The translations under genes and the position numbers were made by a program. A model generated the notes under the pieces. The model saw nothing but the letters and a program-made list of their open reading frames with translations, ran no database searches and was not told where the DNA came from. Below are positions 22,603 through 25,718 of a stretch of DNA of 33,312 bases, piece after piece. Numbering within the stretch: the stretch's first letter is position 1; the number at the start of each line of letters is the position of its first letter. This DNA is from Brevundimonas sp. (GTDB lineage: Bacteria; Pseudomonadota; Alphaproteobacteria; Caulobacterales; Caulobacteraceae): NCBI RefSeq assembly GCF_024711105.1, contig NZ_JANJTL010000092.1, forward strand, positions 1 to 33,312, in the 5' to 3' direction.

Positions 22603-22628
22603 GCGCGGAAGAATCCGCGCTCTTTATT
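22603..22628 (+). terminator. Terminator-like hairpin between ftsQ and ftsA
   Basis: GCGCGGA (22603-22609), loop AGAA, then TCCGCGC (22614-22620), followed by TCTTTATT. This is a perfect 7-bp GC stem with a 4-nt loop and a short U-rich tail, the layout of an intrinsic terminator or attenuator. It lies 13 nt before the ftsA SD core. It also contains a GAATC (GANTC) site across the loop and stem. Confidence 0.55.
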
Positions 22629-22641
22629 GGGGATTGGCTTG

Positions 22642-23970
22642 ATGACGCGTTCGGGTGCGGGCGGCGAGGCAGAAGGGCTGAAGCGGCTCGGGGCGGCGAG
22701 ACCCGCCCAGGTGGCGGCGCTCGACCTGGGCGCGTCCAAGGTGGCCTGTTTCATCATGACCCCGGACGGGGTGCGCCGCGCCGACGGCACCGTGCGCGTG
22801 GCCCACGCCGGCCACGTCCAGTCGCGCGGTGTGCGCGGGGGCGCCCTGATCGACATCGAGGCCGCGGCCGAGGCGATCGACCACGCCATGACGCGCGCCC
22901 AGCGGGACTGCGAGACGCCCGTCTCCAGCGTCATCGTCACCACCTCGATTGGCCAGCCCCAGAGCAGCCGGATCTCGGCGCAGGTCTCCCTGGGGAGCCG
23001 GCCCATCCGGGACGCCGATCTGGCGCGCGCCATCGCCTCGGCCCTGGGGCAGGCGCGCTTTCCAGGCCGGCGGCCGATCCACCTGCTTCCGATCCGCTGG
23101 AGCGTCGACGGCGCGCGCGGCGTACGCGATCCGCGCGGCTTGACTGGGCATCAGCTGGGCCTGGACCTGCTGGTCGTGACCATGGCCGAGACGGCGTTCA
23201 CCGCCATCGCGCATTCGCTGGCCCTGGCGCACCTGGATCTCGAAGGCGTCGTCGCCTCGCCCTTCATGTCGGCCCTGTCGGCGCTGGAGGAGGACGAGAA
23301 GGAGCTCGGCTGCGCCTGCATCGACATGGGCGCCGGCTCGACCACGGCGGCGATCTTCTCCGACGGTTCGCTGGTTCATGTCGACGGGGTGCCGGTGGGC
23401 GGCCATCACGTGACCGCCGACATCGCGCGCGGCCTGTCGACTTCGATGAACGGCGCCGAGCGGCTCAAGACAATGCACGGGTCCTGCATGGCCTCGGCGC
23501 ACGAGGACGGCGAGAAGATCGAGGCCCCGCCGCGCGGCGACGATCCGGGCGCCGGACCGATCGTGGTCGACCGGGGTATCGTCAAGAACATCATCGCTCC
23601 CCGCGTCGAGGAGACGCTGGAGCTGGTCCGCGATCGGCTGAAGGCGTCCGGAGCGCCGTTCGAGCCCGGCGCGAGCGTAGTCCTGACCGGCGGGGCCAGT
23701 CAGCTCAACGGCGTGCGCGAAATGGCCACGCGGGTGTTCGACCGCCCGGTGCGTCTGGCCCGGCCGATCCGCAGCCCGCACCTGGCCGACGCGGCCTCCG
23801 GCCCCGGATTCTGCGCTGCGGCGGGCGTGCTGGTCCGGGCCGCCTACGGTCCGCGCGAGGCGGTTTCGGCCAAGAAGCTGCTCACCGCGCGCATCGGACC
23901 GGCGGCCGCGCCACAGGTGCAGGGGGGCATGCTGAACCGTTTCGCGGGCTGGTTGCGCGAGAACCTCTGA
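22642..23970 (+). CDS. ftsA: Cell division protein FtsA
   Basis: Actin-like ATPase that ties FtsZ filaments to the inner membrane and recruits later division proteins. It has 442 residues from ATG 22642, with GGGGA 8 nt upstream; the TTG at 22627 is less likely. The phosphate-1 loop AALDLGASKVACFIM lies at about 25-39, the 1C domain holds GGALIDIEAAAEAIDHAM, the second phosphate loop is CIDMGAGSTTAAIF, and the adenosine motif is VVLTGGASQLNGV. It ends in an amphipathic helix (MLNRFAGWLRENL) that should bind the membrane. It is 188 nt upstream of ftsZ, which has its own control region. Confidence 0.97.
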   Translation: MTRSGAGGEAEGLKRLGAARPAQVAALDLGASKVACFIMTPDGVRRADGTVRVAHAGHVQSRGVRGGALIDIEAAAEAIDHAMTRAQRDCETPVSSVIVTTSIGQPQSSRISAQVSLGSRPIRDADLARAIASALGQARFPGRRPIHLLPIRWSVDGARGVRDPRGLTGHQLGLDLLVVTMAETAFTAIAHSLALAHLDLEGVVASPFMSALSALEEDEKELGCACIDMGAGSTTAAIFSDGSLVHVDGVPVGGHHVTADIARGLSTSMNGAERLKTMHGSCMASAHEDGEKIEAPPRGDDPGAGPIVVDRGIVKNIIAPRVEETLELVRDRLKASGAPFEPGASVVLTGGASQLNGVREMATRVFDRPVRLARPIRSPHLADAASGPGFCAAAGVLVRAAYGPREAVSAKKLLTARIGPAAAPQVQGGMLNRFAGWLRENL

Positions 23971-24007: not shown

Positions 24008-24087
24008 GGTTAACAAAATCCTCGAAAGAATCACGACTCAGGCTATCGCGGTAACGACGCGTTAAGGTTGGTGGTTTTCCATTAACC
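24008..24087 (+). promoter_or_regulatory. ftsZ control region: two GANTC sites, TTAACC half-sites, possible -10
   Basis: GAATC (24028-24032) and GACTC (24035-24039) are two GANTC sites of the CcrM methyltransferase only 2 nt apart. The second reads TGAGTCG on the minus strand, matching the YGAKTCG preference that I recall for GcrA. GCTATCGC (24042-24049) weakly resembles a Caulobacter -10 box. TTAACC-type CtrA half-sites occur as GGTTAA (24008-24013) and TTAACC (24082-24087), but no full TTAA-N7-TTAA is present. In Caulobacter crescentus ftsZ is known to depend on CcrM methylation and on CtrA. That the same holds here is inference. Confidence 0.55.
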
Positions 24088-24141
24088 TCGTCCGTGATCG
24101 ACGCTTCGGCCAGGCGGGGTCGTTGTCGTCACCGGACATCC

Positions 24142-24147
24142 AGGAGG
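24142..24147 (+). promoter_or_regulatory. Ribosome-binding site deciding the ftsZ start
   Basis: A perfect AGGAGG lies 11 nt before the ATG at 24159. The spacing is a little long. The TTG at 24123 in the ORF track is upstream of this site, so the site supports the internal ATG. Confidence 0.55.
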
Positions 24148-24158
24148 TCGGTGAAGGC

Positions 24159-25718
24159 ATGCGTGATCTGGGTCTTTCGGCGCCGAAGGCGACGGAGTTG
24201 AAGCCACGTATCGTGGTCTTCGGTGTTGGCGGGGCCGGCGGCAACGCGGTCAACAACATGATCGACGCCGGGCTGGAGGGCTGCGAGTTCGTCGTGGCCA
24301 ACACCGACGCCCAGCACCTGGCGCATTCGCACTGCGATTCCCGAATCCAGCTGGGCGCGACAATCACGCAAGGTCTGGGCGCCGGCGCTCACCCCGAAGT
24401 GGGCATGAACGCGGCCGAGGAGTCCGAGGACGAGATCCACGCGCACCTCGACGGCGCGCACATGGTCTTCATCACCGCCGGCATGGGCGGCGGCACCGGC
24501 ACGGGCGCGGCGCCCGTCATCGCCAAATGCGCGCGTGACCGCGGCATCCTGACCGTCGGCGTCGTCACCAAGCCCTTCAGCTTCGAAGGCCGCCACCGCA
24601 TGCGGCTGGCCGACGCGGGCATCGCCGAGCTGCAGCGCTACGTCGATACCCTGATCGTCATTCCGAACCAGAACCTGTTCCGCATCGCCAACGAGAAGAC
24701 CGGCTTCACCGAGGCCTTCGGCCTGGCCGACCAGGTGCTGCTGGCTGGCGTGCGTTCGATCACCGACCTGATGGTGCTGCCGGGGCTGATCAACCTCGAC
24801 TTCGCCGACGTCCGCGCGGTCATGTCCGAAATGGGCAAGGCGATGATGGGAACGGGCGAGGCCCAGGGCGAGGAGCGCGCGATCAACGCCGCCATGGCCG
24901 CCATCCAGAACCCGCTGCTGGACGACACCTCGCTGCGCGGCGCCAAGGCCGTGCTGGTGAACATCACCGGCGGCAACGACATGACCCTGATGGAGGTCGA
25001 CGAGGCCGCCAACATCATCTGGGGCGAAGTCGATCCGGAAGCCAACTTCATCTTCGGCGCGGCCTTCGACGCCTCGCTGGAAGGAAAGCTGCGCGTGTCG
25101 GTGGTCGCCACCGGCATGGACGAGGTCGCCATCCAGAAGATCGAGCCCTCGGCCCCGGCCCGCCGCGTCGAGGCCGTCGCGCCCCAGCCGATCATCCAGC
25201 CCGCTCCGATCCCGCAGCCCCAGCCGGTCATCGAGCCCAGCTTCGGCGTCCGGCAGCCGGAGCCGGCCGTGCGCCGCGCCCAAGCGGACCTGGAGATCGC
25301 CGCCCGGGCCATCGAGACGCCCCACATCCCGGAACCCGTCCCTCAGCAAGCCGCCACGGCCGAGCCGCGCATCATCGGCCGTATCGTCGATCCGGCGGTG
25401 GAGGAGATGGAAGAGCAGGGCGACCTGTATCTCACCGAACCCGCGCCGCAGCCTCGTTCTGCCCAGCCCCGCGCCGAACAGCCCGCCCCGCGCTTGCGGC
25501 CGGACGCCTATGAGGACGACGGCCTGTTCATGCCGCGCGCCGAGCCCAAGCCGCAGAAGTGGTCCCTGTTCGGCCGCCGCCGGCCCGATCCGGAGCCGCC
25601 GTTGGAGCGCGCGCCGCAGATGCGCACGGTCCAGCAGGAGCAGCCTCAGCCAACCGAAGTTGCCACGCCGGAAGACGACCTGGAGATTCCCTCCTTCCTG
25701 CGCCGCCTGGCCAACTAG
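24159..25718 (+). CDS. ftsZ: Cell division GTPase FtsZ
   Basis: Tubulin homologue that forms the Z-ring. It has 519 residues from ATG 24159 ([18 protein letters not shown]), which resembles Caulobacter FtsZ at the N-terminus. The GTP-binding core has [15 protein letters not shown] and the tubulin signature GGGTGTG (110-116), and the catalytic loop carries [15 protein letters not shown]. The core ends near residue 325. A disordered linker of roughly 180 residues, rich in Pro, Gln, Ala and Glu, follows, as in Caulobacter where the linker is also long. The C-terminal peptide [13 protein letters not shown] should bind FtsA and other partners. A TTG 12 codons upstream is the alternative start. Confidence 0.97.

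Follow-up and report, generated by a model that had tools for sequence, protein, structure and literature searches.

A conserved CcrM site in the ftsZ promoter of a Brevundimonas-like lineage, accompanied by a minor lineage-specific GANTC site

In a 33,312-bp stretch of Brevundimonas sp. DNA (contig NZ_JANJTL010000092.1; hereafter the window), two closely spaced copies of GANTC, the sequence methylated by CcrM, precede the cell-division gene ftsZ. We conclude that the region containing them is very probably the CcrM-responsive ftsZ promoter of the Caulobacteraceae, activated by methylation and most likely acting via GcrA. The conserved unit of this promoter is one site only, GACTC; the neighboring GAATC is secondary, a minor extra site specific to the lineage. 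CcrM control of an ftsZ promoter is already known, and what is added here is an uncharacterised Brevundimonas-like lineage with such an extra site, which extends a well-studied case of epigenetic control of bacterial cell division.

The core CcrM site and the promoter around it

The GAATC site (24028-24032) and the GACTC site (24035-24039, within CGACTCA at 24034-24040), neither of them assigned to a strand, start 7 bp apart and are separated by the dinucleotide AC; GACTC is followed by AG and then by GCTATCGC (24042-24049). The first-pass annotation of this DNA had placed the two sites in the ftsZ promoter region, 2 nt from each other and directly ahead of a -10-like sequence, and its positions were right, as was its statement that one of them fits the reported GcrA preference (YGAKTCG) on the minus strand. 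This is the GACTC site, which reads TGAGTCG on that strand. Its G lies 124 bp ahead of the ftsZ ATG, a distance that is mostly 119-147 bp in relatives.

To place the site in a wider context, we compared the ftsZ upstream regions of 155 Caulobacteraceae genomes, of which 93, counting that of the window, belong to the window's genus and 62 to 16 other genera. CGACTCR with TA 2-4 bases further on was found in 151 of the 155 promoters and in 16 of the 17 genera, and named Caulobacter and Brevundimonas records carry the same CGACTC element. Outside the family, none of 40 genomes sampled from four other Caulobacterales families (10 per family; L247-L286) had CGACTCR in the 300 bp before ftsZ. The comparison across Caulobacterales proposed in the first-pass annotation thus supports the promoter assignment and sharpens the range of the element, which is present in nearly all sampled Caulobacteraceae and in none of the sampled members of the other four families. 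PMC3708114 gives a wider range, "Caulobacterales and Rhodobacterales", although our figure refers to 300 bp and 10 genomes per family, and the boundaries of the order have changed.

Promoter columns were numbered from the core GACTC in the 151 core-bearing promoters. The putative -35 element is CTCGAA (24021-24026, plus strand), whose T at 24022 corresponds to column -13, occupied by T in 98% of the promoters of the window's genus and in 100% of those of other genera. The putative -10 region, GCTATCGC (plus strand), contains the hexamer TATCGC (24044-24049) at 17 nt from the -35 element, with a conserved TA: columns +9 and +10 are T and A in 99-100% of the promoters, a value that is partly a product of selection because the search pattern for the core demanded TA 2-4 nt downstream. 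The core GACTC would then sit in the 17-nt spacer of a sigma-70 promoter, with transcription predicted to start near 24056. Across this predicted start lies a CtrA-like box, GTAA-N7-TTAA (24051-24065, no strand assigned), which matches TTAA-N7-TTAA at 7 of 8 positions; boxes with at least 7 of 8 matches were found over the start in all 151 promoters, compared with 3 of 151 shuffled segments. In C. crescentus, CtrA represses ftsZ from this position. CtrA regulation of the C. crescentus gene is cited in PMC3708114.

Methylation as the basis of conservation

The assembly that contains the window encodes both CcrM and GcrA. CcrM (L002) matches chain 6pbd with 643 bits (E 9.4e-193) and has N6_N4_Mtase and RAMA domains, and GcrA (L001) scores above the cut-off for PF07750 and gives a full-length match to chain 7ye1 (255 bits). 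The upstream region of mipZ in the same genome (L244) has TGAGTCG and TGACTCC close upstream of the gene, the former in agreement with the motif shared by ftsZ and mipZ in C. crescentus (PMC3708114). The motif, its position and conservation, and the encoded enzymes are direct observations.

The closest characterised counterpart is the C. crescentus ftsZ promoter, which agrees with that of the window in the gene it serves, in CGACTC between -35 and -10 (putative elements in the window), in a CtrA-like box and in the presence of CcrM; the window differs in having a second GANTC 7 bp upstream. CGACTC is required for CcrM-dependent activity of the C. crescentus promoter (Gonzalez & Collier 2013, PMC3708114): all core mutations reduced activity, and without CcrM all variants, wild type included, were equal. 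The claim of the first-pass annotation that CcrM methylation activates ftsZ in C. crescentus is therefore well founded, and its assignment of the window's promoter to the CcrM/GcrA type is strongly supported by motif identity, position, conservation within the family and the two encoded proteins. In B. subvibrioides, apparently of the same genus as the window, a ccrM mutant expresses less ftsZ, and GcrA regulation of ftsZ is predicted in Brevundimonas (PMC7987155).

A different explanation for the conservation of GACTC is that it is an ordinary spacer element of a sigma-70 promoter, conserved for reasons unrelated to methylation. Consistent with this idea, further promoter columns are conserved besides GANTC. 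However, GACTC is intact in 97% of the promoters, in contrast to free variation in the upstream half of the spacer, and in C. crescentus this explanation is contradicted by the equal activity of all ftsZ promoter variants once CcrM is removed. We consider this explanation very improbable.

By analogy with C. crescentus, we propose that CGACTC, the conserved spacer site between -35 and -10, is a substrate of CcrM and that, once methylated, it would raise ftsZ transcription, most likely via GcrA bound to sigma-70 RNA polymerase, with CtrA over the start site acting as repressor. Passage of the replication fork would leave the site hemimethylated and could thereby tie the supply of FtsZ to the cell cycle; data from C. 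crescentus suggest that ftsZ promoter activity increases from no methylation to hemimethylation to full methylation (PMC3708114). The timing of these events in this organism, like its methylation and GcrA steps, is expected from the same analogy. The extra GAATC would give CcrM a second target, which could have a modest tuning effect on GcrA/CcrM occupancy or be nearly neutral.

Three observations weigh against this model of methylation-activated control. First, the extended motif YGAKTCG was not recovered at GcrA-bound promoters of B. subvibrioides (PMC7987155), so that confidence is lower in the GcrA step than in the CcrM step; a role of GcrA in reading the mark has support at methylated YGAKTCG promoters and is less sure in Brevundimonas, and the window's clade has a promoter variant of its own in comparison with B. 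subvibrioides. Second, the core is missing from four relatives (G251, G163, G048 and G116) that all still encode CcrM, so the site is not indispensable. Third, a simple consensus scan gave no sigma-70 promoter at this position, although such a scan is uninformative for promoters of this type.

Two of the four promoters without a core depart from the CcrM site by one change, with CAACTCA in an otherwise intact promoter (G251, L231) and CGAACTC, in which one base is inserted (G163, L188). Such naturally site-less promoters, in genomes with CcrM, offer existing test cases for whether the importance of CcrM lies in ftsZ activation.

The second GANTC site

GANTC is scarce in the window, with 36 occurrences compared with 146 expected from dinucleotide shuffles. 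The first-pass annotation had expected a single site every few hundred bases; scarcity is indeed found, but sites are rarer than assumed, at 1 per 925 bp (base composition predicts 1 per 368 and dinucleotide shuffles 1 per 229). Under-representation of GANTC is known in CcrM-bearing alphaproteobacteria (PMC3973325). Because GANTC is scarce, a pair 7 bp apart is unusual, and two pairs at a start distance of 5-7 were observed in the window where 0.12 were expected. The second of these, a GANTC-N2-GANTC pair at 24336/24343 (24336-24347), lies within the ftsZ coding sequence and is not present in the three sister genomes; we therefore set it aside as a meaningful site and take it as best explained by chance. 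The whole assembly contains 6 occurrences of GANTC-N2-GANTC, 2 of them at ftsZ, and 9 of a reversed control pattern, indicating no genome-wide enrichment of this spacing.

The pair upstream of ftsZ is kept at the same 7-bp spacing in the three nearest relatives found (G056, G082 and G046; FtsZ 94% identical) and hence throughout the four-genome clade of the window, and GAATC persists in the three sisters despite changed flanks (A-GAATC-A to G-GAATC-G). Absence from sister species, which the first-pass annotation named as grounds for rejecting its claim, was not found; beyond the sisters, only GACTC is conserved. Within the family, 11 of the 151 promoters have a second GANTC 6-8 bp upstream of the core, compared with a mean of 2.5 and a maximum of 8 in 300 shuffles, which ignore relatedness. 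In these 11 promoters the second site is always inside the spacer, and no second GANTC was found at -9 to -15 in the core-bearing Caulobacteraceae promoters (n=151). Because only -6 to -8 fits between the -35 element and the core, spacer geometry may explain this restriction. On a tree built from the FtsZ DNA of 55 genomes, the tandem arrangement requires at least 5 changes, and adding two cases in genus g6 gives approximately 7 origins, leaving out G090, which has a promoter similar to the one in G008. In the window's clade, the tandem seems to have a single origin.

One explanation for this retention and recurrence is that the two sites form a functional tandem unit, in which both are methylated and act together in one spacer, for example by cooperative loading of GcrA or a longer hemimethylated period, so that the promoter responds more strongly or more sharply than it would with one site. 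The C. crescentus mipZ promoter offers a precedent, being a cell-division promoter with two juxtaposed GANTC sites that depends on GcrA and CcrM and at which GcrA binding and the effects of site mutations were measured (Fioravanti 2013, PMC3667746; PMC3708114), although it serves a different gene. However, 93% of Caulobacteraceae promoters lack a second site, and in just 1 of the 11 tandem promoters does the upstream partner conform to the extended GcrA motif. The window is not that one: its GAATC site (AGAATCA) reads TGATTCT on the minus strand and departs from YGAKTCG, so that a tandem GcrA/CcrM unit with two extended motifs was not found. In addition, the 7-bp offset would place the two sites on different faces of the helix, and the disregard of relatedness by the shuffles reduces the weight of the recurrence. 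We regard joint action of the two sites as unlikely, though not negligibly so.

Alternatively, and compatibly with methylation-activated control through GACTC, GAATC may be a nearly neutral neighbor, with only GACTC mattering. The absence of a second site from most of the family and the poor fit of GAATC to the extended motif agree with this idea, and the unconserved pair within ftsZ indicates that pairs of this spacing can arise by chance. Retention of GAATC in all three sisters despite changes in its flanks, in genomes where GANTC is otherwise strongly avoided, argues in the other direction, yet we judge near-neutrality somewhat probable. The emphasis that the first-pass annotation placed on the tandem is thus not borne out, and its suggestion that the pair points to the methylation clock of C. 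crescentus is an extrapolation; a function for GAATC is possible. A broader proposal, which we put forward tentatively and consider unlikely, is that a spacer-located second CcrM site 6-8 bp upstream of the core arose repeatedly in Caulobacteraceae and tunes the response of ftsZ to methylation, in which case promoters with zero, one and two sites would form a graded series.

As a separate observation, ftsZ is preceded in Novosphingobium-like genomes (loci L028, L044 and L045) by two GANTC sites of the YGAKTCG type, 8 bp from each other (-84/-76).

Genes flanking the promoter and the ftsZ leader

The promoter lies between ftsA (22627-23970, plus strand; TIGR01174, E 2.9e-81), the upstream neighbor, and ftsZ (24159-25718, plus strand; TIGR00065, E 3.7e-123). 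The start codon of ftsZ, ATG at 24159, was assigned from relatives and is preceded by AGGAGG (24142-24147).

In 78 of 92 promoters, the Brevundimonas ftsZ leader has a second conserved GANTC approximately 70 bp beyond the core, mostly as CGATTCG on either strand. Its context is CCAATGCGA-TTCGGCGGGGATT-TCGCATTGG, in which CCAATGCGA and TCGCATTGG form the arms of a predicted hairpin around a TCGGCGGGG loop (L121, L104, L147, L134 and most g1 loci). Arms were counted directly in 61 distinct sequences. They were paired in 87.5% of the cells counted, compared with 83.7% in shuffles, and double-sided arm changes occurred in 11 cells compared with 2.2; neither value was reached in any of 1000 shuffles, which again ignore relatedness. 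When the arms were slid, they paired in 29-41%; one slid version had 16 double changes but paired in 29%. RNAalifold gave a poor consensus for this hairpin, which has no match in Rfam and for which no paper was found in a limited literature search. We conclude that the predicted Brevundimonas leader hairpin is conserved and covarying.

The window's clade lacks this form of the hairpin. RNA folding of the window predicts a leader hairpin of its own at 24090-24137 (plus strand; no Rfam match), with GTCCG...CGGAC arms and GGCGGGG at 24113-24119, which is possibly the counterpart of the Brevundimonas hairpin.
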